DNA of 64,000 nucleotides from Pseudanabaena sp. (GTDB lineage Bacteria > Cyanobacteriota > Cyanobacteriia > Pseudanabaenales > Pseudanabaenaceae). The translations under genes were made by a program, and so were the position numbers. The notes below the pieces were generated by a model. The model was given only the letters and a program-made list of their open reading frames with translations, was not told the DNA's origin and made no database searches. Positions 461 through 16,891 of the stretch are shown here, piece by piece. The DNA lies in contig QBMK01000011.1 in NCBI GenBank assembly GCA_003249035.1, positions 1 to 64,000 of the forward strand, in the 5' to 3' direction. The first letter of the stretch is position 1, and each line of letters starts with the position of its first letter.

Positions 461-466
461 GCAAAT

Positions 467-1594
467 CTAACTTAACTTGGAATAAAAAGTTATGTATTGG
501 TCAGCAATACTTGTTTTGGAAAATCTTAGATAATGATTTGTATTTGAGGAACTTATTTCTTTCAATACATTTTGAATCACTTGAGATAAGTTATGAATGG
601 GATCTCCAGTTAAATCAAAATAGGTACAGTCTGTATTACCGATCTCTTGAAAGATAGCAATATTTGAGCATATGACTTTACATGAGAAGAATAAAGCTTC
701 GACTATAGGAATACAAAATCCTTCAAGTGAAGAGGGCATGACAAAAAGTTGGCAATGCTGGTATAGCCAGCAAAGCTGATGATCGTCGATGGACGATAGC
801 ATTAGGATTGATGATTCTAGAGATTTCTCATGAATGAGTTTGAGTAGGGAATTTGTCTCGGGTCCTGGACTGCCAACTAAAACCAATCGAGTTTCTAGAT
901 CAATCTGATTACTTGACTTTAGTAGATCGTAGGTTTTGATTAACAGATCGATGTTTTTGTTTTTGCGATGCTGTGCAACGCAAAGTATAAATGGAAATTC
1001 AAAACGTTTTTGGAAATCGAGCGATGGATTTGTTCGAACTTTACTAAAGTCTACAAAATTGTAAATTACTGTCGTTGGTTTACTTTGCTTCTTGATTTTG
1101 GGGAAATATAGATTTAAGGCTTCTAATGTGGTTCTCGATACACAGGTAATACCATCAGATTGATGAATGCACCATCGTAGAAATAGTTGATTGAAGATTG
1201 CTTGTTTGTAGCCAAAATTTTCAGGAAATTGATATGGATATAAATCGTGAATTGTAGCAACGACTGGGCAAGGAAATTGCGATCGCAGAAATGGTAAAGG
1301 AAAAGACAAATGTACTCTATCTGCTTGATGCTGTCTTGCCAGTTTTGGCAACCCAAAAAGAAACCAGCGATTTCTTGAAAGCGAAGTATTTTTAATGTCA
1401 ATACTAATAAGCTTGATTTTGTTCGATTGAGTTTCTAGCAGATCCCCAAAATAGTGCTCTTGCCATTTGCCGATCGCGATCGTGATTTGGCTTATTTCCC
1501 TTCTATCTACTAGGCATCGAGCTAGATTAGCCGCTACGCGACAAACTCCCGTGGGATCGGTGGGGCGATGTAAAGCTGCGATTAGAATATGCAT
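467..1594 (-). CDS. GT4-family glycosyltransferase
   Basis: A 375-residue GT-B glycosyltransferase. The N-terminus (MHILIAAL, then a PTGVCRVAANLA segment) forms the acceptor-side Rossmann domain. The C-terminal half has the donor-binding signature SSLEGFCIPIVEAL, the usual E-x7-E region of GT4 enzymes, with LVLVGSPGPE before it. It probably adds one sugar from a nucleotide-sugar donor to a lipid-linked glycan at the cytoplasmic membrane. It lies 8 bp downstream of the next glycosyltransferase, so the two are likely cotranscribed. Donor and acceptor cannot be read from the sequence. Confidence 0.85.
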   Translation of the reverse strand: MHILIAALHRPTDPTGVCRVAANLARCLVDRREISQITIAIGKWQEHYFGDLLETQSNKIKLISIDIKNTSLSRNRWFLFGLPKLARQHQADRVHLSFPLPFLRSQFPCPVVATIHDLYPYQFPENFGYKQAIFNQLFLRWCIHQSDGITCVSRTTLEALNLYFPKIKKQSKPTTVIYNFVDFSKVRTNPSLDFQKRFEFPFILCVAQHRKNKNIDLLIKTYDLLKSSNQIDLETRLVLVGSPGPETNSLLKLIHEKSLESSILMLSSIDDHQLCWLYQHCQLFVMPSSLEGFCIPIVEALFFSCKVICSNIAIFQEIGNTDCTYFDLTGDPIHNLSQVIQNVLKEISSSNTNHYLRFSKTSIADQYITFYSKLS

Positions 1595-1602
1595 GTCTAG
1601 TT

Positions 1603-2835
1603 TTACTGATGTAGGTTAGCTAGTTTTTGATATAAATCCGAAAGTTGTTGTCCTTTGCTCTCCCAGCTATAGGAATCCTGAATATGTTGATGCCCAGCTT
1701 CTCCCATTTGAGCAAGTAAATCTCGATCTTGAGAGAGTTTAATCATGGCTTGTGCCAGTTCTTTAATCGTCTGATCGGGATTGTTTGCACTAACTTTGAT
1801 GCCAGTAGCATCAGTGACTTGCTGAGCTGGCCCACCCAGATTGAGGCAAATTACTGGTCGTCTTGCCGCCATTGCTTCTAGGCAAACCCAACCGCCCGAA
1901 TCATGGAGGCTTGGATGGATAAGTGCTGAAGATTGTCCCAATTTGATTAATACTTCATGGCGATCGAGATGTCCAAAAAACTTAACTTGCTCACTAATTC
2001 CTAGATCTAGTGCAAGGGCTTTAAGTGTTGGTAATTCAGGACCTTCTCCTAATATCCAGTATTCAGCATTGGCGATCTTGGTGGCAGCGAAAGCCCTTAA
2101 GCCGAGGTGAAAACCTTTCCAATGCAATAAACGAGCAATATCAATGAAGCGGAGTGGCTCGATACTTGGTGGAGTGGCTTGGCTAAATTCGGATATCTCC
2201 TGTTGTAAGATCCCAGACTCAGAAGCAATTTGGACATTGGGTGCGCCCATTTTGCGAATGCGTTGGGCGGTGTCTTCGGTAGTAGCAAGTGCGATCGCAC
2301 TACGTCGAGCAGTCATGCGGGTAAACGGGTCACACTCACCGATAAATCTCCATGCTCCGCGTAAGGTTTCGTATATCTTATTTTTGAAACTAAAATCATC
2401 CCAGAAAGGTGCTGGGGCTGACTCGCCACCACCGACGGGACCCCAAACAAGAGGTACGGGGAGTAGGCATAAAAAGCTAGGCGTAGAATAGCGCACAAAA
2501 GTAACATGATGAGCTATATCAAATTTGATTTCTTGGTGTAGCTTACGGGCGACGAAATAAGCCTGAATCTGCCAGAGATAGTAGTGCAACTGCATTGGTC
2601 CACGCTGTCCCCAGCGCAGACTATCCTTCCAGAAAGGGAGTGTAAAATAAATAAAATGTAGATTGGGAATGGGGTTGCGTTGAAGTTCAGATTCGATCGC
2701 CTCTCGACTTTCATCGGGTCTTGTTAATACCCATACTTCGTGATGTTTGGCAACTTCACGAGCAACATTCCATCCAACTCCTCGTTCGGAGCCTTTTCCT
2801 GGTTCACAAGAATAGGCAGATAGAAGAACTTTCAT
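1603..2835 (-). CDS. GT4-family glycosyltransferase
   Basis: A 410-residue glycosyltransferase starting MKVLLSAYSCEPGKGSERGVG, a start shared by many cyanobacterial and bacteroidete GT4 proteins that build exopolysaccharide. The central PLVWGPVGGGE motif and the late HPSLHDSGGWVCLEAMA motif mark the acceptor and donor domains. The length is normal for the family. A spacer of about 140 AT-rich bases separates it from the upstream gene, so it could have its own promoter, though none is obvious. The exact sugar is unknown. Confidence 0.87.
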   Translation of the reverse strand: MKVLLSAYSCEPGKGSERGVGWNVAREVAKHHEVWVLTRPDESREAIESELQRNPIPNLHFIYFTLPFWKDSLRWGQRGPMQLHYYLWQIQAYFVARKLHQEIKFDIAHHVTFVRYSTPSFLCLLPVPLVWGPVGGGESAPAPFWDDFSFKNKIYETLRGAWRFIGECDPFTRMTARRSAIALATTEDTAQRIRKMGAPNVQIASESGILQQEISEFSQATPPSIEPLRFIDIARLLHWKGFHLGLRAFAATKIANAEYWILGEGPELPTLKALALDLGISEQVKFFGHLDRHEVLIKLGQSSALIHPSLHDSGGWVCLEAMAARRPVICLNLGGPAQQVTDATGIKVSANNPDQTIKELAQAMIKLSQDRDLLAQMGEAGHQHIQDSYSWESKGQQLSDLYQKLANLHQ

Positions 2836-2976
2836 AACTAGAGAACCTTACTAATACATTTGGATGGAAAGAATGGTATTGCGCTCTGCACTTTAACTAA
2901 AACTAAATAATTTTTAAAAAGCTTTATTGAGTAATTCTTTTTAAAAACTATCTATACTCTACTTATTTAAAAACCG

Positions 2977-4113
2977 CTATATCAATAGTTTATATTGCTC
3001 TAGAGCATACGATGCAATTGATTTCCAATCTAAATTTTCTAACACATACTGTCGCCCTCTAATTCCCATTTCTTTCCATTGAGATCGCTGCTGAACTAAA
3101 CTAGTTAACCCTGCTTTGATCGAGGATGATTCAGGCTTAACAACAATACCACAGCCACTTGATTGCACATGAGGTGCAATGCCTGCAACCTCTGAAACGA
3201 GCAAAACCCTTCCAGCTAACATTGCTTCTAGTGCGGACAGGCTAAATCCCTCAAAACGTGAAGTGATACAGAAAATATCGTAGTTCGCAATAATTGACGA
3301 AGATGATAAATTGTAATCGGGTTCCAGGAAAGTTACTTTGTCTGATAATTTTAGTCTAGTAGTTTGCGCTTCTAGTGTTGCTCGATCACCCCAATCTGGT
3401 CCTTGAATTGTGAGTTTACAACCAAGCACTGCACTAAACTCAGCAAATGCATCCAATAAAATATCGAGTCCTTTGTTGTAAGCATCTAAACGTCCTAAAA
3501 ATAAGAGCTTAGGTTCTCTGTCAATACTCCAACTAAGATGGGACTCTGGATGAACATCAGCTATTGAAAACCCATTAGGAACCTCGACAACATCAGTTAG
3601 TACTTTTAACCGACGCAACCATTCATCGTGACGTTTATCTAAAACCTGAATTGCGCGTGCTTGACTCAACATGCGCCGCTCCAAGATATACCAATAAAGC
3701 CATTTCAAATAGGCATTTTTATGGAAAATTGTTGGGTGATATGGATCGTGAGGTGCAACAATATATGGGATAGAATGCTTTATTAGCAAGCGAGATAGAG
3801 CATAAACACTACGATGAAAAATACCATTTAGAATAAATAGACTTTGCTCAGAGGTAGAGATGGTAGCAATATACTGCTCTATATTTAGAGAAAGTTTCAA
3901 GGAAGGTTTAGTACTTTTACTTGCAAAAGAGGCAATTTGATATCCAGCTTGAGCTTGGTACAGAGTATCTTCCGATGCGCCTTCACAGATCACGGTTGCA
4001 TCGACTCCACAAGCAGCTAAACCAGATGCAAGACCATGAACTGCTTTGCTAGTCCCTTCGTTAAATCCACGACCATCGGATGGGAAATGCTTTAGGTAAA
4101 GATAGACTCTCAT
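2977..4113 (-). CDS. GT4-family glycosyltransferase (leader-ORF coupled)
   Basis: A 378-residue GT4 enzyme when started at the ATG at 4113. An upstream in-frame TTG at 4170 is open but poorer. The N-terminal half has KHFPSDGRGFNEGTSKAVHG; the C-terminal half has KLLFLGRLDAYNKGLDILL and SRFEGFSLSALEAMLAG, the donor-site signature. Its ATG overlaps the stop of an 11-codon leader ORF (4110-4145) that has a strong AAGGAG ribosome site, while the gene itself has none. Translation is therefore probably coupled. The role in the surface glycan pathway is inferred from context. Confidence 0.85.
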   Translation of the reverse strand: MRVYLYLKHFPSDGRGFNEGTSKAVHGLASGLAACGVDATVICEGASEDTLYQAQAGYQIASFASKSTKPSLKLSLNIEQYIATISTSEQSLFILNGIFHRSVYALSRLLIKHSIPYIVAPHDPYHPTIFHKNAYLKWLYWYILERRMLSQARAIQVLDKRHDEWLRRLKVLTDVVEVPNGFSIADVHPESHLSWSIDREPKLLFLGRLDAYNKGLDILLDAFAEFSAVLGCKLTIQGPDWGDRATLEAQTTRLKLSDKVTFLEPDYNLSSSSIIANYDIFCITSRFEGFSLSALEAMLAGRVLLVSEVAGIAPHVQSSGCGIVVKPESSSIKAGLTSLVQQRSQWKEMGIRGRQYVLENLDWKSIASYALEQYKLLI

Positions 4114-4145
4114 TTGATAATAGCCATTATTAACTGGAAACTCAT
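4110..4145 (-). CDS. Eleven-codon leader ORF coupled to the downstream glycosyltransferase
   Basis: ATG at 4145 encodes MSFQLIMAIIK and stops with TGA. That TGA overlaps the ATG of the glycosyltransferase at 4113 in an ATGA junction. An AAGGAG Shine-Dalgarno lies 5 bases before the leader ATG, in the 3' end of the preceding gene, whereas the downstream ATG has no recognisable site. This is the usual layout of translational coupling through a mini-ORF. The peptide has no known family. Expression is inferred from the ribosome site, not shown. Confidence 0.5.
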   Translation of the reverse strand: MSFQLIMAIIK

Positions 4146-4159
4146 GAAGGCTCCTTAAA

Positions 4160-5293
4160 TTATTCAACAATCTGTGAAGATTTTTTCAAAACAAGGTTTT
4201 CATATACTTTAGCAACCTGTTCTGCATTTTTTTGCCAGTTAAAAAACTTTGCTCTTAATAATCCCTTCTCTATTAATTGATTACAGTAACTAGGATCTTG
4301 CTTAATTTGGCAGACTGCTTCTGTGATTGCTTCCACATTCAGGGGATCGACTAAAATTGCAGCATCACAAACCACTTCAGGTAGGGAAGAAACATTTGAG
4401 GTAATCACGGGGGTTCCACACGCCATTGCTTCTACAATAGTTAGCCCAAACCCTTCATAGAGAGAAGGAGAAAGCAAAATATCAGCCGCATTATAAAGAC
4501 ATACTAATGTTTCTTTGTCAGGATTTCCAAAGTGAATGACATGTCGATCGAGCTGATGCTCATTAATGAAAGCCTTGTGTTCTGGAGTGAATTGACCACC
4601 CGTTTTCCATAAGCAAACAGATAATCCTTTAGTTCGCAAACTTTCTACTACTTTGAGTATTGTCAACATATTTTTTCGCTGATGCGTTCCTCCTACATTA
4701 AGTAAACAAATAGTCTCTGGTGAAGGGGTGTATTGCTGGCGTAATGAAACTACTGGAACTCGAGGTAGAACTCGAAATTGTGGTTCAACCCCATTAAGTG
4801 CCACAGTGATGTTCTCTGATGGTATATTCAGAAATTGCTGGATATCTTTTGCGGTATTAGAAGAAACGGCAACAATATGATTTGCCTGACGCATGCCCTG
4901 AACTGAGTGTCGCCAAACAGAAAGACTGAGTGCAGGAAAGCGCGACTGCCTTTCTGGATAGATTAATTGTACTAAATCGTGACAGGTGACAACCGTTGAT
5001 TGCCTTGCTCTGTTGAGGCATCGAGCAATATGAGCATCGGTGTGATCAACAATATGAAAAATATCGGCTTGTTGTTGTCTGACTTCCCGTGGGTAACGCC
5101 AATAGCACTCATAGTATTTACGTAAGCCCGATCCCGACATCCATAGTTTGTCAGGGCTATTCCAAGGTTTTGGCTCGATTTCGATTATCGTCCATGCTGG
5201 GCGCACAGTTTTAAGCCCCGCAACTAAATTGTCAGTATATATATCTATGCTAGGAGTAGAACCTCGGACTCGACGTACAATAATTATTCGCAT
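4160..5293 (-). CDS. GT4-family glycosyltransferase (mannosyltransferase-like)
   Basis: A 377-residue GT4 protein. The ATG at 5293 (MRIIIVRRV) is preferred over an in-frame TTG at 5320. Visible blocks are the HIVDHTDAHIA and VVTCHDLVQLIYP acceptor-domain segments, the LNVGGTHQRKN hinge and the donor motif SPSLYEGFGLTIVEAMACG. The last block is very close to that of bacterial alpha-mannosyltransferases, but sugar specificity cannot be settled. Its stop lies 14 bases before the leader ORF of the next gene, which fits cotranscription. Confidence 0.87.
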   Translation of the reverse strand: MRIIIVRRVRGSTPSIDIYTDNLVAGLKTVRPAWTIIEIEPKPWNSPDKLWMSGSGLRKYYECYWRYPREVRQQQADIFHIVDHTDAHIARCLNRARQSTVVTCHDLVQLIYPERQSRFPALSLSVWRHSVQGMRQANHIVAVSSNTAKDIQQFLNIPSENITVALNGVEPQFRVLPRVPVVSLRQQYTPSPETICLLNVGGTHQRKNMLTILKVVESLRTKGLSVCLWKTGGQFTPEHKAFINEHQLDRHVIHFGNPDKETLVCLYNAADILLSPSLYEGFGLTIVEAMACGTPVITSNVSSLPEVVCDAAILVDPLNVEAITEAVCQIKQDPSYCNQLIEKGLLRAKFFNWQKNAEQVAKVYENLVLKKSSQIVE

Positions 5294-5409
5294 CGAATAT
5301 ATCCCAATAAATTTATGCAATTCTTCATTGTTTTCATGAATATAACTTTATATTTATAGCAGCCCAAAATGACTTTGGGAACTCCAAGGAAAAAAATGAT
5401 CTATAAAAA

Positions 5410-5452
5410 CCACAAATATGACGGCGCGCAAAGCCCACCGCCATATTTGTGG
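5410..5452. repeat. Intergenic hairpin with GCAAAGC tip
   Basis: CCACAAATATG (5410-5420) pairs with CATATTTGTGG (5442-5452). The inner part pairs imperfectly and ends in a GC-AAA-GC tip. It lies in the 183-base spacer between two minus-strand glycosyltransferases. It resembles in architecture, not in stem sequence, the hairpins at 20012, 33112, 36664 and 38038. It may act as an attenuator or mRNA-processing site; there is no clean T-run on the minus-strand side. Confidence 0.6.
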
Positions 5453-5476
5453 GATCAATTATTTTTTGCAAGTCCC

Positions 5477-6706
5477 TTATAGCTTTTTGAAAGTTATGTG
5501 AGATGCTTCCTTTTTGAGAACTGTTTGCCATAGGGAGACTAATCTATGGGCAATTTTTTCATGGGTATAAAGTTGATTCACTCGCGCAATACCATACATT
5601 CCAGCCTCTTGACGCCATTTAGCATCGTTGATCATTTTTGCAAGTATATCAGCCAATGTGTTGTGATTTTCCTCTGGAAATACTAAATCAGGACGACCAA
5701 TTACATTAGGGATTTCTCCTGAATTAGAGCCTACTACAGGAATGCCCATAGACATCGCTTCAATTAGAACATGCCCAAACTGTTCTTTCCAAGTTGGGGT
5801 TGAGCGAGAAGGTAGTATCAATACATCAAATTGGCTAAGCTCTGCGGGGGCTTGGCTATGGGGAACTGCACCCCGCCAGATGACAAGATCGACAATTTGC
5901 AGATCGTGCGCTAGTTTTTGTAGAAATTCTTCTTCAGAACCAGAACCACAGAGAATTATTTGACTGTTGATACCGCGATCGCGAAGTTTAGCAACAGCTT
6001 TAAAAATTAGATCGATTCCTTTGCTTTGTGCTAATCTCCCGAGGAACCCCACCCTAAACATTAGTGCGTCTTCGCCAGAGACTTTTGTGGGTGGAGCGAA
6101 AAACTCTGGATCGACCCCCATTTGGGGCATTACTTCTAATAAGCCATGGTAGTTCCACTTTTGCATGATTTCGGCTCCGTCCTGATTGCCAGGGATAATC
6201 GCACTAGCCGTATTGAGTACAAACTTGCAAATCTGCCAACGAAAAAAGGGTAGTTGCCGCAACTGATTTTCCCAGCCAAATACAACCATTGGCTTTCCCA
6301 TCAAGCGGGAGAAAACTGCGACTTCAAAAGCACAGATCGAGAAAACTTCCACTTCGGCTTGGATTATGTCGGGTTTGAATTCTTGTAAAACTTTCCACAG
6401 ATCCCATGGGGTATAAAAATACGCTCCGACCCGACCCGAAAATTTAACGGGAGCTTCATAAAGATGGAGGTTAGGATAGGGACGTTCTAATGGCAGTAAC
6501 CGATTCCACTCTAATGCTTTCCAGTTGCTAGGAGCAAGCAACCCAACTTCGATGCCTTCGACTTGAGCGATCGCATTGAGCTTGCCCTGATTAACTCCAA
6601 CGACGTAAGCATGGCTAATAAAGAGAACTCTCATCGGATTGCTGGAAGATTCTGGAGGAACCACTGTTAATTGACGATTGGGAGTTTCTTTCATGATCAA
6701 AGACAT
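5477..6706 (-). CDS. GT4-family glycosyltransferase
   Basis: A 409-residue glycosyltransferase. An N-terminal extension of about 24 residues precedes MRVLFISHAYV, so the true start may be the internal ATG near 6634 rather than 6706. The donor half has VGFLGRLAQSKGIDL and LPSRSTPTWKEQFGHVLIEA, a signature found in cyanobacterial exopolysaccharide glycosyltransferases. The acceptor half carries PDIIQAEVEVFS. It lies 12 bases after the GT2 gene. The sugar added is unknown. Confidence 0.85.
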   Translation of the reverse strand: MSLIMKETPNRQLTVVPPESSSNPMRVLFISHAYVVGVNQGKLNAIAQVEGIEVGLLAPSNWKALEWNRLLPLERPYPNLHLYEAPVKFSGRVGAYFYTPWDLWKVLQEFKPDIIQAEVEVFSICAFEVAVFSRLMGKPMVVFGWENQLRQLPFFRWQICKFVLNTASAIIPGNQDGAEIMQKWNYHGLLEVMPQMGVDPEFFAPPTKVSGEDALMFRVGFLGRLAQSKGIDLIFKAVAKLRDRGINSQIILCGSGSEEEFLQKLAHDLQIVDLVIWRGAVPHSQAPAELSQFDVLILPSRSTPTWKEQFGHVLIEAMSMGIPVVGSNSGEIPNVIGRPDLVFPEENHNTLADILAKMINDAKWRQEAGMYGIARVNQLYTHEKIAHRLVSLWQTVLKKEASHITFKKL

Positions 6707-6718
6707 TATTTAATAACT

Positions 6719-7774
6719 TTATTTCGTAAGTGCCCGAATTTTGTTAACAGTCCAATCGATAAATTTCGGTCGGTATTGTGGTGCATAGAGCCAAGTGATG
6801 GCTGGAGAAGCTAAAGGCAACGGTAGCAGCCCTACCCAAATAAACCATAGACTATAGAATATCCGCTTTTGCCAGTTAAAGTCTGAGTATTTCCACAGTG
6901 AGCGAATGCCGTAATGAATTAAGTTTAATCGACGATCGTCAGCGATTGGATGCTCTTTTGGCGCAAGACGCAAAGAAATAATCCGAGACCATAAACGTCC
7001 GATTGATCTCTGATCTAAATCAGATGGACATTCATAACCGAGTTCCTTGGCTTTTTGCTTCACTAAGTCAAAATTTTGGAGATCGTGACGCACAAAACGC
7101 TGAAAGCGAGATGCACTAACGGTTGATAACGCCCACTGATTTGAGTCATGAATTCTATATGCACCCAAAGGCTCTTCGATCGCTGCTACATTGCCATAAA
7201 ACGGAACCTGATATGACAAATAATCATCTGCCGTAAGCTTATAAGCATCAGGTATTGGGAACAGCTTTTCTAAAGCATGACGACTTAAAGCATTGCCACT
7301 CGTTGGGGTGCTTACATAAACGCCTTTATCCAAAATAAATTTCCAGACTTCGCCATGAGAGAGTGGTGAGTTTCCCTGTGGTGATGAGTATCCTAAAGAT
7401 TTTCCTTCTATATCTACTACTTGCAAGCGATAGTGAACTTTTGCAAGTTCTGGACTCCACGCTGAGACAACCTGCTCAACAGTATGTGGAAACAAGTAAT
7501 CATCTGAGTCTAAAAAAATGATGATTTCACCTTTGCTTTTGGCAAAACCACTATTAAAAGCTGCAGCTTGTTTCCCGTTTTCTTGCAATATTGATATAAT
7601 GCGATCGCTATATCCAGCAATAATCTCGCGGGAGTTATCGGTCGAGCCATCGTCAACCACAATTACTTCAATATGGGGATAAGTTTGACTTAGAGCACTA
7701 TCAATCGCCTCTGCAAGAAAGCGATCGTAGTTGTAATTGTTAATAATTATGCTAGCTAGCGGATTTGTCGTCAT
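6719..7774 (-). CDS. GT2-family glycosyltransferase
   Basis: A 351-residue inverting GT-A glycosyltransferase. ASIIINNYNYDRFLAEAIDS opens the fold, VIVVDDGSTDNS holds the nucleotide-binding aspartates, and FLDSDD is the metal-binding DxD. The C-terminus has a hydrophobic stretch (SLWFIWVGLLPLPLASPAI) that may anchor it to the membrane. The ATG at 7774 is chosen because it overlaps the upstream TGA (ATGA) and has GGAG 8 bases before it; an upstream in-frame start is open but unnecessary. A 24-codon remnant of a second copy lies at 9195-9266. Confidence 0.88.
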   Translation of the reverse strand: MTTNPLASIIINNYNYDRFLAEAIDSALSQTYPHIEVIVVDDGSTDNSREIIAGYSDRIISILQENGKQAAAFNSGFAKSKGEIIIFLDSDDYLFPHTVEQVVSAWSPELAKVHYRLQVVDIEGKSLGYSSPQGNSPLSHGEVWKFILDKGVYVSTPTSGNALSRHALEKLFPIPDAYKLTADDYLSYQVPFYGNVAAIEEPLGAYRIHDSNQWALSTVSASRFQRFVRHDLQNFDLVKQKAKELGYECPSDLDQRSIGRLWSRIISLRLAPKEHPIADDRRLNLIHYGIRSLWKYSDFNWQKRIFYSLWFIWVGLLPLPLASPAITWLYAPQYRPKFIDWTVNKIRALTK

Positions 7775-8928
7775 AATATTGACTCCAACAAGTTTTTTAG
7801 CTGTTGACCTGCAGTATTCCAATTAAGCTTTGACTCGTATTCATGAAAAGCAGAAAGTGCTAAATCTTGATAATCCTGATAGTTAGAAAATAGACCATAT
7901 ATATAATTGCTATATTCAGATGATTGGGTACTGATATCGAAGAGATTACCGTTAATATTTTGTTTGATAATTGTTGGAATCCCGCCAACCTTCCGAGAAA
8001 TACAAGGAACTCCAAAAGAATTTGCTTCGGTGAAAACAACTCCATAACATTCTGCTCTCGAAGGAAGAATCAGAAAATGAGATTCGGCAATTAATTGATT
8101 AATTTGCTCCTTGCCAGCGACAGTAGATTTACTAATATAGCCTAAAGATTTGACATAACTTGGAAGAGAACCTTCTACAAGTGGGTGACATCCAACAACT
8201 GTAAATTCTGTATCTAAGCCTAAATTGTTCAGATCTTCAGCTACTTTGAGTGCGATATCTCCACCCTTTCGGTACCAATCAACCCCTAAAAATAACAGTT
8301 TACATTTATTTGCAGGTCTAGCTGCTATCAGGTCTTTAATGTCACTCAGAGTTCTACAACTATCAATGTTGGCTCCAAATGGCACCACCTTCACCTTCTC
8401 TGGATCGGCACCATAATATTCAATCGCTGTCTGGGCTGCCCAGTCAGAGGAGTAAATCGCTAACTTACACTTTTCTAGAGCTTGCTTTTCCATCATGTGC
8501 CAATTATCGATTGATTCCTGACAAAGATTATTGTACTGAGGATAAAAATTCACCAAGCCAGCACAAGTTGCATCTGCATAGAAGACAATCGGCTGACTAC
8601 AATCAAGATAGACAATTGGTCTTATTGTGGCGCTAAAAACTATATCAGAATTAGTCTCAGAAAGAATTTTGGAAATCTGCTTTGCATAATCCCTCAAAAT
8701 TGGCAGATCTGCGTCTTTTTCATAATGTTTATCTTGAAAAAATTTGTAGTATGCACTTTTGTACTTTTGTACAATCCTCAACACATATTTTTCTTCCAAA
8801 GGGCCAAGATAGCCCAAATCTATACCTTGGTTCTTAATGGATTGTGAAATATAGTAGCCTGAGCCCGACCATTCATTAGAACCGGTTAAACTTCTTGCAT
8901 CGTATGTGGTTGTATATGCGACTTTCAT
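7771..8928 (-). CDS. GT4-family glycosyltransferase, copy A of a tandem pair
   Basis: A 385-residue glycosyltransferase beginning MKVAYTTTYDARSL. It is clearly paralogous to the gene at 9289-10452; shared blocks include SNEWSG, AIYSSDWAAQ, RPANKCKLLFLGVDW in copy A and RPTDRCKLLFLGVDW in copy B. Donor-side segments are LLFLGVDWYRKGG and ILPSRAECYGVVFTEANSFG. Ten bases upstream lies a remnant of an ABC-transporter 3' end, as also found upstream of copy B. It is translationally linked to the GT2 gene by an ATGA overlap. Probable role: sequential or redundant sugar addition in the polysaccharide pathway. Confidence 0.87.
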   Translation of the reverse strand: MKVAYTTTYDARSLTGSNEWSGSGYYISQSIKNQGIDLGYLGPLEEKYVLRIVQKYKSAYYKFFQDKHYEKDADLPILRDYAKQISKILSETNSDIVFSATIRPIVYLDCSQPIVFYADATCAGLVNFYPQYNNLCQESIDNWHMMEKQALEKCKLAIYSSDWAAQTAIEYYGADPEKVKVVPFGANIDSCRTLSDIKDLIAARPANKCKLLFLGVDWYRKGGDIALKVAEDLNNLGLDTEFTVVGCHPLVEGSLPSYVKSLGYISKSTVAGKEQINQLIAESHFLILPSRAECYGVVFTEANSFGVPCISRKVGGIPTIIKQNINGNLFDISTQSSEYSNYIYGLFSNYQDYQDLALSAFHEYESKLNWNTAGQQLKNLLESIL

Positions 8929-8937
8929 TAATTACTC

Positions 8938-9030
8938 TTATTGTTCTAATACAACTTCTTGATAGCTACCTGATTTTATGACTTTTCCGTGTTCACTCTT
9001 GTAAATGCGATCGCAATGCTCAATAGTCGA
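8938..9030 (-). pseudogene. Remnant of an ABC exporter C-terminus (copy A)
   Basis: The minus strand reads STIEHCDRIY, then GKVIKSGSYQEVVL, then a stop. This is nearly the same as the last 29 residues of the intact exporter at 14354-16147 (STIEHCDRIY...GKVIKSGSYQEVVL). Homology to the exporter ends abruptly at about 9030. No start or nucleotide-binding domain remains, so it is a non-functional scar. It shows that a copy of the exporter once preceded this glycosyltransferase. Confidence 0.85.
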
Positions 9031-9039
9031 CAATCAACA

Positions 9040-9140
9040 AAACTTGGCTGCGCTAAGACTCATATTCATCTCAAAGATATTTAAATGTAAATAGAGCTTA
9101 GTTAGCTAATAGTTATATTAACCCTTGCTACCTATGGTAA
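9040..9140. repeat. Duplicated non-coding block, copy A (partner 10617-10695)
   Basis: The stretch CTCAAAG, TACTTAAA-like bases, GTAAATA, then TTAGTTAGC and AATAGTTATATTAA recurs with few changes at about 10617-10695. In both places it lies just beyond the ABC-exporter remnant, so it marks the shared upstream part of the tandem duplication. From 9141 to 9194 there is a small inverted repeat (TGCTGCTAC/GTAGCAGCA) near the junction with the GT2 remnant. No gene is seen in 9031-9194. Confidence 0.6.
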
Positions 9141-9194
9141 CAAGAAAAAAATGCTGCTACAAAGGCCAAAAGACGAGTAGCAGCAAGAAAAACA

Positions 9195-9266
9195 GATCGC
9201 CTCAGCAAGAAAGAGATCGTAGTTGTAATTATTGACGATGATGCTTACTAGTGTATTGGATTTCAC
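9195..9266 (-). pseudogene. Remnant of the N-terminus of a GT2 glycosyltransferase
   Basis: From a GTG at 9266 the minus strand reads VKSNTLVSIIVNNYNYDLFL then AEAI. This matches residues 2-23 of the intact GT2 enzyme (TTNPLASIIINNYNYDRFL, AEAI). Homology stops at about 9195. Its place just downstream of GT4 copy B is the same as the intact GT2's place downstream of copy A, so the whole ABC-end/GT4/GT2 block was duplicated and this GT2 copy was lost. Confidence 0.82.
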
Positions 9267-9288
9267 AATTTTCAGTTGTCTATTAATT

Positions 9289-10452
9289 TCATAGAATTGT
9301 CTCTAGTAATTGTTTAACTTGCTGTCCTGCAAATCCCCAATTAAGCCGAGAATCATACTCATTAAAAGCGGATAAAGCCAGATTTTTGTAATCACCATAA
9401 TTAGCAAACAAGTTAGTAATGTAATCACAGTAATCGGCGATATTGCTTTCTGTCGAAAATAATTGACCATTAAAACCATTGCGAATCATTGTTGGTACAC
9501 CACCTACTGTAGTAGACAAACAGGGAACACCTAGAGAGTTTGCTTCAGCAAATACGATTGGTGTGCAATCAGCGATTGTTGGTAAAATTAGAAAATGCGA
9601 TTCTAAGAGGATTTGACTAATTCGATCTTGACCTTCTGGAGTTGCTTTACTGATAAATCCTAAAGGTCTAACAAAGTCAGGTATTGGCTCGTCTAATATT
9701 GGTGGACAACCAATGATAGTTAACTCAGTTTTTAATCCCGATCTGTTTAATTTTTTAGCAACTTCATATGCTACATTCCCTCCTTTTCTGAACCAATCTA
9801 CACCAAGAAACAGCAACTTGCAGCGATCAGTGGGTCTTGCATCTATGACATCCTTAATCGTTTCGTGATTAAAAGGACTATTGACATTAGAACCAAATGG
9901 GATCACTTTTACCCTAGTAGGATCAGCACCATAGTCATGAATAGCAGACTGAGCTGCCCAGTCTGAGGAGTAAATAGCTATCTTCGCTTTTTGTAAAGCT
10001 AGCTTTTCCATTTGATGCCAATCGCGCAATACTGAATCACTTAGATTGGTATATATAGGGTAAAAGTCTTTAATGTTAGCAAAAGTTGCATCTGCCCAAA
10101 AGACTATGGGCTTGCTAGCTTCGAGATAGGCGATCGGGTTAACTGTGGCGCTAAAGATAACATCTATTTGCTTCTGCGAGCTGTGCAGTTTTTTACTTAC
10201 TTGCTCAGCATAATACCTCAGCGTCCTTATGTCAGAATCACTTTGATAATTGCTTTGCTCCATATACTTGTAGTAAAGACGCTTCAGCCTACGGATATTA
10301 TTTAAGCCCTTCGGTTCTCTTAAAGGACCAAAGTAGTCTAAAGAAATTGACTGATTTTTAATTGCTTTTGCAATATAGTAACCAGTCCCAGACCATTCGT
10401 TTGACCCTTTAAGTCTACTGGCATCATAAGTTGTGACATAAGCTATATTCAT
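9289..10452 (-). CDS. GT4-family glycosyltransferase, copy B of a tandem pair
   Basis: A 387-residue paralogue of the 7771-8928 protein, starting MNIAYVTTYDASRLKGSNEW. Substitutions are spread along the whole length, so the duplication is not recent and both copies look functional. The donor domain has CKLLFLGVDWFRKGG and LPTIADCTPIVFAEANSLG; in copy A the equivalent acidic loop reads AECYGV rather than ADCTPI, which may change specificity. It is flanked upstream by an ABC-exporter remnant and downstream by a GT2 remnant. Confidence 0.86.
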   Translation of the reverse strand: MNIAYVTTYDASRLKGSNEWSGTGYYIAKAIKNQSISLDYFGPLREPKGLNNIRRLKRLYYKYMEQSNYQSDSDIRTLRYYAEQVSKKLHSSQKQIDVIFSATVNPIAYLEASKPIVFWADATFANIKDFYPIYTNLSDSVLRDWHQMEKLALQKAKIAIYSSDWAAQSAIHDYGADPTRVKVIPFGSNVNSPFNHETIKDVIDARPTDRCKLLFLGVDWFRKGGNVAYEVAKKLNRSGLKTELTIIGCPPILDEPIPDFVRPLGFISKATPEGQDRISQILLESHFLILPTIADCTPIVFAEANSLGVPCLSTTVGGVPTMIRNGFNGQLFSTESNIADYCDYITNLFANYGDYKNLALSAFNEYDSRLNWGFAGQQVKQLLETIL

Positions 10453-10489
10453 CTCTTTACTCTGTTTCGCATAAAATTTATTTTTTGGA

Positions 10490-10612
10490 CTATAACTCTT
10501 GTCCTAATACAACATCTTGATAACTACCTGACTGTAAAACTTTCCCATGCTCAATTTGGTAAATGCGATCGCAATGCTAAATATTCGAGAGACGATAAGT
10601 AATAGAATATGG
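10490..10612 (-). pseudogene. Remnant of an ABC exporter C-terminus (copy B)
   Basis: The minus strand reads ITYRLSNI, a stop, HCDRIYQIEHGKVLQSGSYQ, DVVLGQEL and stop. It aligns with the exporter end (AHRLSTIEHCDRIYQIEEGK, VIKSGSYQEVVL). An internal TAG replaces the Glu of TIEHC, and no catalytic domain is left. It lies upstream of GT4 copy B exactly as the 8938-9030 remnant lies upstream of copy A. Confidence 0.83.
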
Positions 10613-10808
10613 TTAGTCTTTCGCTTATATTGCTCTCAAAGGTACTTAAACGTAAATATAGCCTAGTTAGCAAATAGTTATATTAAGGTTATAGATCAAA
10701 TACATTAAAAATTTTGCTTTAATATTGGTTAAGAAAGATATACGAAGATCGAGTCAAAATAATGTTTTACACGATCTTACAAGCCATAAAATTTTCATAA
10801 ATCACCAC
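10613..10808. other. Spacer holding duplicated block copy B
   Basis: About 10617-10695 repeats the block at 9040-9140 (CTCAAAG...TTAAACGTAAATATAG...AATAGTTATATTAA). The rest, to the rfbA stop, is AT-rich, with no open frame or recognised signal. Together with 10453-10489 this makes a 356-base stretch without an intact gene. Confidence 0.55.
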
Positions 10809-11882
10809 CTACATAATCTCAAGTTGAGAATCATCACCGACGAGGAACCTGAGAGCTTGAGGGCGTTTGGGGGAGACTTTCATTGATACTCTTTGACCGA
10901 TCACGCTATCGACGATGCGCTGATGAATACCTGTGATTTTGGTGTCGCAGAGAATCACGCTATGTTCGATGTCAGTGTCGATAATTGTGACCCGATCGCT
11001 AATGCTGGTATAAGGACCAATGTAGGCATGTTCAAGATGACAATTTTCGCCAATGATGACTGGCCCACGAATTTTGCAGCTAATCACCTTAGAACTCAAG
11101 CCAACCTCAACGCGACCGCTAATATTGCTATCACTATCGATATCTCCTAGATTCTGAGATTTTAATCTGGCATCAAGAACAATTTGATTAGCGGCAAGGA
11201 TATCGTCTTTCTTACCTGTATCTAGCCACCAGCCTTCTAATTCATCTGCTTCTACTTTTTGATTCGTATCGATTAGTTGTTGGATGGCATCAGTGATTTC
11301 TAGTTCACCTCTTGCTGATGGTGCAATATTGGCGATCGCAGAATGAATCGTATTTTTAAAGAAATACACGCCTACCAACGCTAGATTGGATTCGGGCTGT
11401 TTAGGTTTTTCGATTAATCTAATTACTCTGCCCTCTAGATCGATGGTGGCCACACCAAAGGCAGTAGGGTCAGCGACCTGACTTAGAAGGATTAGGGCAT
11501 CTAGTCGCTTTTGTTGGAAATTAGCTAAAAATTTATTTAACTCTGACTCGATTAGGTTGTCGCCAAGAAACATGATGAAGGAGTCATCACCGAGAAATAG
11601 CTGAGAAATTTTAACAGCATGAGCTAGTCCTGAGGGTGTGTCTTGGAGGATATAGGTAATATTTGCGCCAAAGCGATCTCCATTTCCTGTTTTACTTTTG
11701 ACTTCTTCACCAGTCTCGGGGCTGATGACAATGCCAATGTCGGTGATGCCTGCGGCGACGATACTTTCAATGCAGTACCAAAGGATCGGTTTATTGGCAA
11801 CGGGGACGAGTTGCTTTGCGCCAGTATAGGTAAGCGGGCGTAATCTTGTCCCTTTACCACCAGAGAGAATTAAAGCTTTCAT
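10809..11882 (-). CDS. rfbA: Glucose-1-phosphate thymidylyltransferase, long form
   Basis: It makes dTDP-glucose from dTTP and glucose-1-phosphate, the first step to dTDP-L-rhamnose. MKALILSGGKGTRLRPLTYT is the nucleotide-binding start; MFLGDNL and WWLDTGKKDD are further active-site blocks. At 357 residues it is the long variant, with a C-terminal left-handed beta-helix of hexapeptide repeats (VIIGENCHLEHAYIGPYTSI). The ATG at 11882 was chosen because it begins the conserved fold 4 bases after the rfbD stop; a longer in-frame extension would overlap rfbD. It is the fourth gene of rfbCBDA. Confidence 0.93.
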   Translation of the reverse strand: MKALILSGGKGTRLRPLTYTGAKQLVPVANKPILWYCIESIVAAGITDIGIVISPETGEEVKSKTGNGDRFGANITYILQDTPSGLAHAVKISQLFLGDDSFIMFLGDNLIESELNKFLANFQQKRLDALILLSQVADPTAFGVATIDLEGRVIRLIEKPKQPESNLALVGVYFFKNTIHSAIANIAPSARGELEITDAIQQLIDTNQKVEADELEGWWLDTGKKDDILAANQIVLDARLKSQNLGDIDSDSNISGRVEVGLSSKVISCKIRGPVIIGENCHLEHAYIGPYTSISDRVTIIDTDIEHSVILCDTKITGIHQRIVDSVIGQRVSMKVSPKRPQALRFLVGDDSQLEIM

Positions 11883-11886
11883 AGTT

Positions 11887-12756
11887 TTATCTAGCTTGGA
11901 TATAAGCGGCAAGAGCTTCTTGCCAAGGGCGCATTTTAAAAGTTGAGATGTCAGCAAGGCGATCGCTGATGATTGCCGAATTCATCGGTCTAGTGGCTTT
12001 GGTGGGAAAAGCCAAAGCAGGAATCGCCTCAATGGGATACTGAATATTAGCAAGGCGCAGCACCTGGCTTGCAAATTCATGCCAAGAACAACTACCAGCA
12101 TTTGCTCCATGCATAATACCTGAGGCACCTTCTTGCAAAAGTGCGTCGAGTAATCTAGCCGCATCATAGGTATAGGTGGGCGACATAAAAATGTCGTTAA
12201 CCACTTTGATCGGTTCGCCCGCCTTAGCTTTTTTGATCATCGTTTCCACAAAGTTACCTCCCTTGCCGCTCGCCCCTGCTTTGCCGAAGACACTAGAGAT
12301 TCGCAAAATTAGCGATCGCGGCGCAGTTTGCCGCACTAGGTACTCACCTGTGAGTTTGGATGTACCGTAAATATTAATCGGGGCTGGAATATCAGATTCT
12401 GTATAGGGATCTGGGCGATCTCCTCGAAACACATAATCGGAGCTGATATAAACACAAAAAGCGCCAATATCACGGCAGGCTCTAGCCACCTCTAACGCAC
12501 TGATCGCATTAACGTTAAAGGCTGTCTCAACTTCTTGCTCGCAATCATCGACACGGACATAGGCAGCGCTATTGATCACCACATCAAATTTCTGGCTTGT
12601 TAAAACCCGAGCGACCTCATCAGCTTTTCTAATATCAATATCAGCGCGAGTTAGGGCTGTGAGTTGATAGCGAGCGCTTTGCGAAAAATGACTGGCGATA
12701 TCCGAACCTAACTGTCCGTTTGATCCAATCAGAGCCACTTTTAGAGGATTACTCAT
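11887..12756 (-). CDS. rfbD: dTDP-4-dehydrorhamnose reductase
   Basis: It performs the last step, reducing dTDP-4-keto-L-rhamnose to dTDP-L-rhamnose with NAD(P)H. VALIGSNGQLGSDI is the Rossmann motif; the SDYVFRG, then INIYGTSKLTGE (YxxxK) and RISSVFG blocks are diagnostic for RmlD-type reductases. The length of 289 residues is typical. The ATG at 12756 overlaps the rfbB stop as ATGA, preferred over a GTG at 12768. Confidence 0.94.
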   Translation of the reverse strand: MSNPLKVALIGSNGQLGSDIASHFSQSARYQLTALTRADIDIRKADEVARVLTSQKFDVVINSAAYVRVDDCEQEVETAFNVNAISALEVARACRDIGAFCVYISSDYVFRGDRPDPYTESDIPAPINIYGTSKLTGEYLVRQTAPRSLILRISSVFGKAGASGKGGNFVETMIKKAKAGEPIKVVNDIFMSPTYTYDAARLLDALLQEGASGIMHGANAGSCSWHEFASQVLRLANIQYPIEAIPALAFPTKATRPMNSAIISDRLADISTFKMRPWQEALAAYIQAR

Positions 12757-13772
12757 CTGGCATACCACTGGTTGTAATGCTCTTGAAATACTTTCTTATC
12801 CTTAACCGCTTGCCACCAGTCAGAATTTTGTTTGTACCAAGCTACTGTTTGTGCCATACCGAGTTGAAAGTCCCATTGACGCTGCCATCCGAGAGATTCA
12901 GCAGCAATAGGATCGACGGAATAGCGATAGTCATGACCAGGGCGATCGCTGACTGATTGCATTAGTGATTCGGGGCGATCCAGCAAACCTAAAATAGTCT
13001 TGGCAACCTCGATCCCATTGACCTCCATTCGCGCACCAAGGTTATAGGCTTTACCGCTTGTACCTGCGTGCAACACCGTATCAATGCCCGAGCAATGATC
13101 TTCGACATATAGATAATCGCGGACAGCCGAGCCATCGCCGTAGATGGGCAAAGATTTTGATTCTAGGGCGTTGGTGATAAATAGGGGAATAATCTTTTCA
13201 GGGTATTGATACAGTCCGTAAGTATTGGAACCGCGCGTAATCACCACATCCAAGCCATAGCTAATGCCATAGGAAAAGACTAAATGCTCGGCTCCAGCTT
13301 TGGATGCAGCATAGGGACTGCGAGGTGACAAAGTATCTGTTTCTAAGGAATGGCGATCGCTTCCAACTAAATCCCCATAAACTTCATCGGTAGAAACGTG
13401 CAGAAATCTTTTGATTTGATATTTTCGCGCTGCTTCTAATAATATTAATGTACCTTCGATATTAGTGCGAATAAAGAGAAGCGGATCGCGCAGGCTGCGA
13501 TCGACGTGGCTTTCGGCTGCAAAGTTGAGGATTGCGTCCACCCCATTTACGGCTTTTTCGACATCTTCAGGATTCGCAATATCGCCTTGAATAAAGGTAA
13601 TGCGATCACGGACATCTTTGAGGTTATCTAAATTTCCCGCATAGGTCAGCTTATCTAAAACTACTATTTCCCATGTCGGATGATTGGCAAGGGCATAATG
13701 CACATAGTTAGAGCCAATAAACCCCGCACCACCTGTGACAAGTACCTTTTGAAATTTTGTGACTGAACTCAT
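12753..13772 (-). CDS. rfbB: dTDP-glucose 4,6-dehydratase
   Basis: It converts dTDP-glucose to dTDP-4-keto-6-deoxyglucose. VTGGAGFIGSNYVHYAL is the NAD-binding start, HVSTDEVYGDL holds the Thr-Asp-Glu catalytic set, and SPYAASKAGAEHL gives the YxxxK pair. At 339 residues it has normal RmlB length. Its ATG overlaps the rfbC stop and its stop overlaps the rfbD start, so these three genes are tightly coupled. Confidence 0.95.
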   Translation of the reverse strand: MSSVTKFQKVLVTGGAGFIGSNYVHYALANHPTWEIVVLDKLTYAGNLDNLKDVRDRITFIQGDIANPEDVEKAVNGVDAILNFAAESHVDRSLRDPLLFIRTNIEGTLILLEAARKYQIKRFLHVSTDEVYGDLVGSDRHSLETDTLSPRSPYAASKAGAEHLVFSYGISYGLDVVITRGSNTYGLYQYPEKIIPLFITNALESKSLPIYGDGSAVRDYLYVEDHCSGIDTVLHAGTSGKAYNLGARMEVNGIEVAKTILGLLDRPESLMQSVSDRPGHDYRYSVDPIAAESLGWQRQWDFQLGMAQTVAWYKQNSDWWQAVKDKKVFQEHYNQWYAR

Positions 13773-14314
13773 ACAAATAACTCCGCTTCTTTTAACAATT
13801 TGCCAACCGCATCTTTAGCGGATAGAACTGGTATTCCTTCAAGTTGCCATGAGATCTCTAGCTCAGGATCATTCCACAATAAGCATCTCTCTTCACTAGG
13901 TGTATAGTAATCTGTGGCTTTATAAGCTATTTCTGCAAAATCAGATAGAACCGCAAAGCCATGGGCAAATCCTGCGGGAATCCATAGCTGCTGATAGGTT
14001 TCGGCACTTAGAATGTAACTTACCGATTTACCAAATGTTGGTGAACTTTGTCGCAGATCTACAGCTATATCCTGAATTGTGCCTGCTAAAGCTCTTACTA
14101 ATTTGCCTTGCGGTCTGCCAATTTGATAATGCAATCCACGTAAAACGTTCTTCTGCGATCGCGAATGATTGTCTTGAACAAAGGTGACGTCTATACCTGT
14201 TTTTTCGGCAAGAGCTTTTTGGTTGTATGACTCATAAAAAAATCCCCGTTCATCATCAAATACCCTAGGGGTGATCAGTAAAACATCAGGAATTGCCGCT
14301 ATTTCAACTTTCAT
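13769..14314 (-). CDS. rfbC: dTDP-4-dehydrorhamnose 3,5-epimerase
   Basis: It epimerises C3 and C5 of dTDP-4-keto-6-deoxyglucose. The 181-residue cupin-fold protein shows RVFDDERGFFYESYN at the start, DNHSRSQKNVLRGLHYQ (catalytic His region) and IPAGFAHGFAVLSD. It follows the ABC exporter by 39 bases and is the first of the four rhamnose genes, so the cluster is probably one transcript starting upstream of the exporter. Confidence 0.94.
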   Translation of the reverse strand: MKVEIAAIPDVLLITPRVFDDERGFFYESYNQKALAEKTGIDVTFVQDNHSRSQKNVLRGLHYQIGRPQGKLVRALAGTIQDIAVDLRQSSPTFGKSVSYILSAETYQQLWIPAGFAHGFAVLSDFAEIAYKATDYYTPSEERCLLWNDPELEISWQLEGIPVLSAKDAVGKLLKEAELFV

Positions 14315-14353
14315 GCAAATTTCGCTAAACTTTTTTAAACGCTCAATTTGTCT

Positions 14354-16147
14354 TTAGGAGATACCTAAAACAACTTCCTGATAGCTACCTGATTTTATTA
14401 CCTTTCCTTCTTCGATCTGGTAAATGCGATCGCAATGTTCAATAGTCGAAAGTCGGTGAGCAATGATAATAATCGTTTTGCTTCCACTTAAGGCTTTAGT
14501 TGCTTCAGTTACAAGATACTCTGTCTCATTATCCAGAGCAGCTGTAGCTTCATCAAATATCAAGATTTCCCTTTGATGATAAAGAACGCGAGCAATCCCA
14601 ACCCTTTGCCTCTGCCCCCCAGACAATAATATTCCGCGTTCTCCCACAAGAGTATGAACCCCATTTGGTAATTGTTCAACTACATCCTTCAATTGAGCCA
14701 TCTCAATAGCTTTTTGTAGCTTTTCTTTATCAATTAAATTATCAGGGATCCCAAATGCAATATTTCTTTCTAAGGTATCATCAGTTAAAAAAATCGTCTG
14801 CGGTACATAACCTAGTAAATTTTGCCAAGCACGCAAATTATCGTATACCGATGAACCATCAACTTTTATGTCCCCAAATTGTGGTGTAAAAAGCCCCAAA
14901 ACAATATCTACAAGAGTTGTTTTGCCAGATCCAGATTTTCCGATTAGTCCAATGGATTGTCCTTTATGTATTTTTAGCGAAATGCCATCCAGTGCTTTTC
15001 GGTTAGAGTTTGGATAAGTAAAAGTGAGTCCATCTAGGGTTATCTCTTCCTCAAAAGACATAGGCTGAATATCTAGACTTGACAGAAATATATCTGATTG
15101 ATCTTTGGATTCTAGTTCTGATATCAGATTTTCTTTCTCAAGATTTTTAAGATCAAAAAATAATTGATCTACCGCAAATGTATTCGCTCGAATCACATTT
15201 AATCCAGACACTAAGTTGCCCGATGCTGGAAGCAAGCGGATAGAGGCAAGTGCAAAAATTCCAAGGACTGCATTAAGGTTGTCTCGGTTCTGATTTAAAT
15301 TGATATATAAAAGTGTAAAGACCACTAGAAATGTAATCATAAATGCTTCGATTACATAGCGAGGAAGATTCCCATATCCTTCTGCCAAACTCGTATTTCT
15401 AGAGAACTTCTGGGCTTGTTCCTTCATTTGCTGCTCAAAATAGGATTCACAACCTATTATCCGCGTCTCTTTCAGTCCACCCAACCCATGATTGAGAATT
15501 CGGATCATTTCACCAGAAGCTTGCCAACCATCATGAGTCCATGTAGTTAATCGTGGTTTCATCAGTTTGAGTAAGCCCACCATGACTAATAAAAGCATGG
15601 CGATTAGAAGAAGAGCCATAATATTAGTCTTAACCAGTAGAGCCATTAGCGAGACTACAACCAGCATATTAGATGTAGATGTTAAAACCCCCATAACGAC
15701 TCCAACAGAAACTTTATCTGTAGTGGCAGTAATATTCTGAATCAGTTTTGCAGAATTAATATTCAAATGAAAGTCGTAAGGAGCCTCTATATATGCATTC
15801 ATCAATTTGCATGATAATTCGCCTTTTAAGTTATAACCAAATTTAAAAACTGATTTTTGAGCATGAAAGCTCAAAAATGCTTTGACGTAGAAAGCAACAA
15901 CTACCACAATACCTAAAGTAAGTATAAATTGCTGCTCTGAGTAAAAATGTATATTCGTATATATCTGCTTTAACCAAATATTATTCTGAATCAGTTCTGG
16001 ATTAGTTGAGATTGCTATAAATGGTCCAATAATTCCCGTCCCAAATACTTCCAATCCAGAAATGAATAAAAATGTAAATAGCATAGAAATAAGAGCACTA
16101 TGATGACCCTTAGTTAGATACAGAAGCTTCGATGTAAATTTAGTCAT
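14354..16147 (-). CDS. ABC exporter with fused membrane and ATPase domains (PglK/MsbA-like)
   Basis: A 597-residue half-transporter. The N-terminal ~330 residues carry about six membrane helices. The ATPase half has Walker A GLIGKSGSGKTT, signature LLSGGQRQRVG, Walker B ILIFDEATAALD and the H-loop IIAHRLST. It likely flips a lipid-linked oligosaccharide, or exports glycan, for this locus. It is the first gene of the minus-strand cluster. Two remnants of its 3' end lie upstream of the GT4 pair, showing that it once existed in more copies. The substrate is inferred from the neighbours. Confidence 0.88.
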   Translation of the reverse strand: MTKFTSKLLYLTKGHHSALISMLFTFLFISGLEVFGTGIIGPFIAISTNPELIQNNIWLKQIYTNIHFYSEQQFILTLGIVVVVAFYVKAFLSFHAQKSVFKFGYNLKGELSCKLMNAYIEAPYDFHLNINSAKLIQNITATTDKVSVGVVMGVLTSTSNMLVVVSLMALLVKTNIMALLLIAMLLLVMVGLLKLMKPRLTTWTHDGWQASGEMIRILNHGLGGLKETRIIGCESYFEQQMKEQAQKFSRNTSLAEGYGNLPRYVIEAFMITFLVVFTLLYINLNQNRDNLNAVLGIFALASIRLLPASGNLVSGLNVIRANTFAVDQLFFDLKNLEKENLISELESKDQSDIFLSSLDIQPMSFEEEITLDGLTFTYPNSNRKALDGISLKIHKGQSIGLIGKSGSGKTTLVDIVLGLFTPQFGDIKVDGSSVYDNLRAWQNLLGYVPQTIFLTDDTLERNIAFGIPDNLIDKEKLQKAIEMAQLKDVVEQLPNGVHTLVGERGILLSGGQRQRVGIARVLYHQREILIFDEATAALDNETEYLVTEATKALSGSKTIIIIAHRLSTIEHCDRIYQIEEGKVIKSGSYQEVVLGIS

Positions 16148-16278
16148 TTAGAATTGAGAGTCCTATAAAAATACAAATAATCATCTCGTCAGTTATAAAT
16201 TTTTATTTTAACATGATTGATTTTTCCTTTTAGAGATTATTGTAGTGCTATCTGTATTTTAGAGAAACTCTTGAAAGT

Positions 16279-16885: not shown

Positions 16886-16891
16886 TTAAAT

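Follow-up and report, generated by a model that had tools for sequence, protein, structure and literature searches.

The window considered here is a stretch of 64,000 nucleotides (nt) from one strain of Pseudanabaena sp., positions 1-64,000 of a 110-kb contig (QBMK01000011.1) in a genome of 60 contigs. Its minus strand carries a putative surface-glycan cluster that comprises an ATP-binding cassette (ABC) exporter and two units, A and B, in each of which a glycosyltransferase gene of the GT4 family (GT4A or GT4B) follows a scar of an exporter 3' end. Read along this strand, the order is exporter, four rml-like genes, block B, scar B, GT4B, a stub of a GT2 gene, the end of an insertion sequence (IS), block A, scar A, GT4A, an intact GT2 and more glycosyltransferase genes (Table 1). 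The cluster's far flank is not visible because the window begins at base 1 of the contig. Both GT4 genes (7771-8928 and 9289-10452) are intact open reading frames (ORFs), and the two proteins are 55% identical. The four ORFs behind the exporter are, judging from the look of their sequences, presumably the dTDP-rhamnose genes rmlA, rmlD, rmlB and rmlC.

Table 1. Features of the glycan cluster in the order in which they are read along the minus strand; positions are those of the window (aa, amino acids).
Feature	Positions	Strand	Basis
Intact PglK/MsbA/HepA-like ABC exporter of 597 aa, membrane and ATPase domains in one chain	14354-16147	-	ORF; profile and structure matches
Four rml-like ORFs between exporter and unit B (14314-10809 as read)	10809-14314	-	ORF list
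Putative leader block, unit B	10634-10686	-	alignment, profile
Exporter 3'-end scar B, in-frame stop inside	10499-10627	-	alignment
GT4B, 387 aa, Nostoc desertorum type, motif ADCTPIVFAE	9289-10452	-	tree, motif, Pfam
Stub of a second GT2 gene, its initial 23-24 codons	9196-9266	-	alignment
Truncated IS982-like element end, two hairpins, seam between the units	9118-9192	-	repeat search, fold, IS982 model
Putative leader block, unit A; extends over the final bases of the IS end	9069-9121	-	alignment, profile
Exporter 3'-end scar A	8938-9035	-	alignment
GT4A codons 1-340, Goleter/Myxosarcina type, motif AECYGVVFTE	7909-8928	-	tree, breakpoint test
GT4A codons 341-385 and stop; affinity moves off Goleter and leans to the Nostoc type	7771-7908	-	breakpoint test
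Intact GT2, 351 aa, Nostoc desertorum type (85%)	6719-7774	-	identity, Pfam
Remaining operon, more glycosyltransferase genes in the order of Goleter L083 (which has additional genes interspersed)	1603-6706	-	ORF list, locus comparison

GT4A and GT4B are not sister genes. Relatives of GT4A were collected from a set of genomes with one genome per species (84,980 species), which yielded 45 loci, 26 of them cyanobacterial, and a tree was built from 33 sequences, namely those of 31 of the 45 loci together with GT4A and GT4B. GT4A falls in a clade with Goleter (locus L083), Myxosarcina (L084) and Vasconcelosia (L092), and GT4B in a separate clade with Nostoc desertorum (L091) and Aliterella (L086), each supported at 100/100. 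Sisterhood of the two genes is rejected by the approximately unbiased (AU) test (delta lnL 140.6, p = 2.5e-6). GT4A is 79% identical to its relative in Goleter (non-synonymous divergence, dN, 0.13; synonymous divergence, dS, 0.78) and 72% to that in Myxosarcina, while GT4B is 74% identical to its relative in N. desertorum (dN 0.17, dS 1.46). An earlier interpretation of the window, made from its letters without database searches (hereafter the sequence-only reading), had taken the two genes for tandem paralogues. The independent origin found here overturns that claim and is the kind of result that the reading itself had named as its refutation: the copies left by a simple tandem gene duplication are mutually closest relatives, which by tree and AU test GT4A and GT4B are not.

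GT4A itself is a recombinant, whose likeness to Goleter ends at about codon 340. At the sites where Goleter and N. desertorum differ, matches to the former and the latter number 277 and 55 before the breakpoint and 11 and 25 after it; none of 2000 site permutations, which take sites as independent, was as extreme (log-likelihood ratio 21.5 versus a permutation maximum of 9.2). The same test applied to GT4B as a control detected no breakpoint (338 of 500 permutations as extreme). Both proteins match the Pfam family Glycos_transf_1 (61.5 bits for GT4A and 47.0 for GT4B, with a cut-off of 26.4). An EX7E motif is typical of the GT4 family, and among the 33 sequences this C-terminal acidic motif has two main forms, AECYG..E as in GT4A and ADCTP..E as in GT4B; GT4A thus shows E..E and GT4B shows D..E, a form common to its clade and to many relatives. 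In locus L085, the GT4 (6079-7230) has the ECYG motif and is yet nested in the DCTP clade, which suggests that motif forms may be swapped by recombination.

Three exporter 3' ends can be found on the minus strand, one in the intact gene and two as scars. As the sequence-only reading had proposed, a remnant of the exporter end precedes each GT4 gene and aligns with the end of the intact gene near 14354. Over 90 ungapped nt (scar A, 8946-9035; intact gene, 14365-14454; scar B, 10504-10593), scar A matches the intact end at 78 positions (87%) and scar B at 73 (81%); the homology of scar B extends back to about 10627. Between 70 and 78 of the 90 exporter positions have been kept in the scars despite their lack of coding capacity for an exporter, scar B being interrupted by an in-frame stop and scar A by a stop plus a 7-nt gap close to its beginning. 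When scar A and its block were used as a 183-nt query on the own genome (E <= 0.001), only the three exporter-end places were recovered (E 1.9e-91, 6.1e-31 and 1.3e-24), and 19 further loci that carry this exporter were examined without a second exporter end coming to light. Differences from the intact gene lie mostly at third codon positions (8/12 for scar A and 15/20 for scar B), as they do between the working exporters of the window and of N. desertorum (10/16). This pattern suggests that the scars derive from other functional exporter alleles and not from the present gene, their divergence seeming mostly to predate truncation. Between the two scars, 10/17 differences are at third positions, a weaker signal, yet one unexpected if a single non-coding fusion had fathered both. 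Since the GT4 genes are whole beside decayed scars, both are probably in use; most likely they differ in the donors or acceptors that they prefer and add sugars to a glycan that the PglK/MsbA-like exporter carries across the membrane.

The non-coding block before each remnant, also pointed out in the sequence-only reading, is identical at 47 of 53 positions (89%) in the two units. The two units also resemble each other in the stretch that leads from the block to the exporter homology (18/33 positions, reached by 2 of 20,000 shuffles), and the two scars very probably share one junction, at which the leader would be fused to the exporter's last ~45 codons. A profile was built from three copies, the two of the window and one of a congener (G005), and these are the three strong places that it finds in 38 genomes of the family. 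Downstream of the block in G005, after 137 nt, comes a large DUF4347/DUF4082/DMFA2_C protein, whose gene opens a run and is followed by a glycosyltransferase-like gene and then by an exporter 52% identical to that of the window. This head protein corresponds to 2759-6898 of locus L042, and only a distant match to it (27%) can be found in the own genome, at another place. From its place at the head of that exporter operon, the block would be an operon leader, and each scar resembles such a leader fused to the exporter end. We infer a promoter role from position alone, as a sigma-70 promoter scan gave 2 sites against 7.3 expected and none in either block. A degenerate block-like stretch at 16513-16549 (minus strand; E 0.089; 0/300 shuffles), some 365 nt before the intact exporter, was noticed post hoc and is at most suggestive of a further copy. 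The block was rejected as a genus-wide regulatory element, matches beyond the three strong copies being weak (best E 0.024 in the 38 family genomes and 0.0056 in 22 further genomes); at 11 loci with weak matches, many of these lie inside ORFs, and no glycan operon head was recognised, the functions of the ORFs not having been searched. With three strong copies only, a mobile repeat is not supported either, in contrast to the adjoining spacer, which is mobile.

The seam between the units consists of two features that the sequence-only reading had not described, the 5' stub of a GT2 gene (9196-9266) and the truncated end of an IS982-like element (9118-9192). The stub, which stands after GT4B, agrees with the own intact GT2 (55/71) no better than with those of Nodularia (55/70) and N. 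desertorum (54/70), and it runs directly into 75 nt that are repeated across the genus. At E <= 0.1, this repeat has 24 matches in one congener (G018), 8 in another (G002) and 2 in the own genome, with some match in 20/38 family genomes. Over 65-78 nt, it is 90-95% identical to eight copies of an element of which the genus has many. Both ends were seen in six copies, four of which measure 909 bp from AACC to GGTT with inverted ends, the other two measuring 2236 and 2355 bp; a 4-bp flanking repeat was discerned by eye in 4/6. Elements of the IS982 family are about 0.9-1 kb long with terminal inverted repeats, and the 909-bp copies agree with this in both size and ends. For the transposase pieces of the copy in the own genome, IS982 is the best model, the two ORFs scoring 24.7 and 64.3 against a cut-off of 130 and each spanning part of the model. 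Block A starts where the IS ends, and the shared block is thus bounded on its left by an IS insertion point. The spacer hairpins fold strongly (z -5.6), and a plain transcription terminator was considered; since they lie in an IS end, they are to be ascribed to the element, although they may still stop transcription.

The original order exporter-GT4-GT2, postulated in the sequence-only reading, proves right, since among the 26 cyanobacterial loci an exporter upstream and a GT2 downstream of the GT4 can be found together in 16 and a GT2 downstream in 18, several others ending at contig edges. Operons of exporter, GT4, GT2 and a further glycosyltransferase, with the same genes in the same order, occur in N. 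desertorum, Goleter, Myxosarcina and others. In the examined ones, one exporter lies upstream of one GT4, whereas in the window rml-like genes stand between exporter and GT4, and there are two GT4 genes and two scars. Goleter has the window genes in the same order as far as the gene GTb, with additional genes interspersed. The operon is mosaic in its affinities: in quick trees, the exporter and GT2 join N. desertorum (98 and 99 in the Shimodaira-Hasegawa-like approximate likelihood ratio test), whose exporter is the nearest among the compared loci (75%), and the genes GTd, GTc and GTb best match Goleter (75, 70 and 90%). For the rml-like genes, no match above 26% identity was found in the 26 cyanobacterial loci at 70% coverage.

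The best NCBIfam model for the exporter is PglK (314 bits, cut-off 1000), and HepA scores 264 bits (cut-off 725); both scores lie below the equivalog cut-offs, and an assignment as HepA of the heterocyst envelope polysaccharide (HEP) island was therefore rejected. Among solved structures, PglK was matched over its full length (E 4e-70), P-glycoprotein-type chains ranking above it. As with exporters of the PglK/MsbA/HepA type, a fused full-length exporter here stands beside glycosyltransferases. Both GT4 motif types can also be found in one Myxosarcina genome (G238), as in the window, but there they belong to two full exporter-GT4-GT2 operons (L177 and L178) on separate contigs, one per motif type; the two GT4 types can thus coexist. 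Other adjacent GT4 pairs occur in cyanobacteria (L047 in G056, L176 in G226 and L175 in G108), and no exporter-end scar was found beside them in a whole-exporter search at E 1e-8, which short scars could escape.

Rarity in congeners together with a conserved flank makes the cluster look like an island. None of 25 congeners has a match to GT4A better than E 3.4e-12; at E 1e-75, 57/388 genomes match, with no congener among them, and at E 1e-60 GT2 is found in 1/38 family genomes, namely its own. The adjacent thrS is 94-98% identical in 7/8 congeners searched, the eighth being without a match. The pdxH-thrS stretch is shared by 2/4 congeners examined (G008 and G005), in which no alignment reaches into the cluster; there, the glycan cluster (window 1-16891) was not found next to pdxH-thrS. 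The ORFs beside pdxH in G008 show no likeness to the cluster, their functions not having been searched. Elsewhere in the window, two adjacent overlapping ORFs on the plus strand (21545-22591 and 22585-23601), which by eye may be Rieske-type oxygenases, are 61% identical and may be a true tandem duplication.

With moderate confidence, the two units can be explained as divergent versions of one truncated operon head that recombination has stacked; an IS remnant lies where they meet. In this view, a surface-glycan operon was acquired horizontally and the stretch is its head after rearrangement; the truncated head, made up of leader block, exporter scar (~45 codons), GT4 and GT2 start, would be present in two versions head to tail. 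A deletion in the ancestral operon would first have fused the leader to the exporter 3' end, so placing GT4 close behind the operon promoter. Head versions with different GT4 alleles would then have been united by recombination, most of GT4A coming from a Goleter-type source and GT4A being itself recombined near codon 340. An IS982-like element would have sat just upstream of block A, and a deletion from about codon 24 of the unit B GT2 into this element would have produced the present seam. The exporter would now be provided by the intact gene at 14354. From the earlier proposal that the locus grew by segmental duplication and partial loss, the rearrangement, the partial loss and the shared junction are retained, and the derivation of both GT4 genes from one gene by tandem duplication is given up. 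Of the elements of this account, the separate kinship of the GT4s, the breakpoint, the IS remnant, the common junction and the conserved gene order of the operon are demonstrated, whereas the succession of events, the promoter function of the block and every enzyme specificity are inferred.

Several points weigh against this stacking of divergent heads. A common local frame is suggested by the shared leader-scar junction and by the 89% identity of the blocks, so that an old duplication may lie under the later replacement, and no strain with a single unit was found. Within its clade, which includes the long row L092, the pairing of GT4A with Goleter is supported at 85/73 only, and the GT4A tail is 67-71% identical to N. 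desertorum, which does not pin down its source. For the exporter, the GT4s and GT2, the nearest relatives in the compared loci reach no more than 74-85%, so that the real donors are unsampled. Both the scar comparison (90 nt) and the GT2-stub comparison (71 nt) are short. Finally, the transposase pieces fall under the IS982 cut-off and are without any Pfam family match, and the IS may have been inserted after the stacking instead of causing it.

The alternative that survives best, possible though unlikely, is that a Nostoc-type unit was duplicated in tandem long ago in this lineage and that Goleter-type DNA later replaced most of the GT4 of unit A, whether by homologous recombination or by conversion. 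Such a history would readily yield the same leader-scar junction and 47 of 53 identical block positions in both units, as well as a GT4A tail, a GT2 and an exporter that lean to the Nostoc type, as GT4B does. Against it, on stretches that are all short, the GT4A tail (codons 346-385) is 66% identical to GT4B versus 71% to N. desertorum, the GT2 stub is no nearer to the own GT2 than to those of other genera, and scar A shares 78/90 positions with the intact exporter but 73/90 with scar B. Rather doubtful is a further idea, in which leader and exporter scar would form a portable operon head, i.e., a conserved promoter on a short exporter tail where foreign GT4 alleles dock in tandem by homologous recombination, with the scar as upstream and the GT2 start as downstream homology. 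If this were true, a glycan cluster would accumulate alternative transferases in an array and could switch or combine them.

More doubtful again is a present function of the scars, in which leader and exporter tail would act as a conserved 5' untranslated or coupling element for GT4 expression; the retention of 70-78 of 90 exporter positions without coding capacity and the strong conservation of the block would fit, whereas the codon-patterned differences look as if exporter alleles had diverged before truncation, an indel and stops are present, and the 19 other loci hold no second exporter end. A segmental tandem duplication of exporter-GT4-GT2, with partial loss of two exporters and subsequent divergence of paralogous GT4 genes, is very improbable: the unit architecture is repeated and the gene order conserved elsewhere, but for the GT4 genes this history is already refuted by the AU test and by the identity of GT4A to Goleter (79%) versus GT4B (55%), unless tree and test both mislead. 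Hardly credible is an assembly or binning artefact combining DNA of different organisms, for although the draft is in 60 contigs, the cluster starts at a contig end and its genes resemble those of other genera, both block and IS are present in the own genus, thrS (7/8) and the syntenic pdxH-thrS flank (2/4) recur in congeners, and the estimated genome contamination is 0.71%.

Considered as two divergent heads stacked by recombination, the locus resembles a known kind, the IS-associated mosaic glycan loci, for which the O-antigen cluster of Salmonella group D2 is a published precedent. That cluster is a recombinant of the D1 and E clusters with an H-repeat remnant at the junction (PMC3715488). 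As there, a glycan locus is composed of parts with different closest relatives, and a truncated insertion element lies at a junction. Unlike in Salmonella D2, one gene slot is doubled here, each copy standing behind a leader and an exporter-end scar, and the element is a different one; moreover, the nearest relatives belong to other genera and are not near-identical, the best identities per gene being 70-90%. Glycan loci of this sort are often recombination hotspots, according to a review (PMC6249986). In Nostoc PCC 7120, an association of glycosyltransferase mutations with cyanophage resistance has been reported (PMC12507012). In a literature search covering titles and abstract openings, no publication was recognised as dealing with the present locus.

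Within 3 kb of cyanobacterial DNA, the two alleles of one slot, an intragenic breakpoint, a shared deletion junction and an IS remnant can thus be read side by side, and in our judgement the intermediate steps of glycan-locus recombination are seldom so legible. The locus also calls for caution, as a repeated architecture need not mean gene duplication. The conserved exporter-GT4-GT2 operon, with its two GT4 motif types, offers a target for studying the effect of a transferase swap on the surface glycan.

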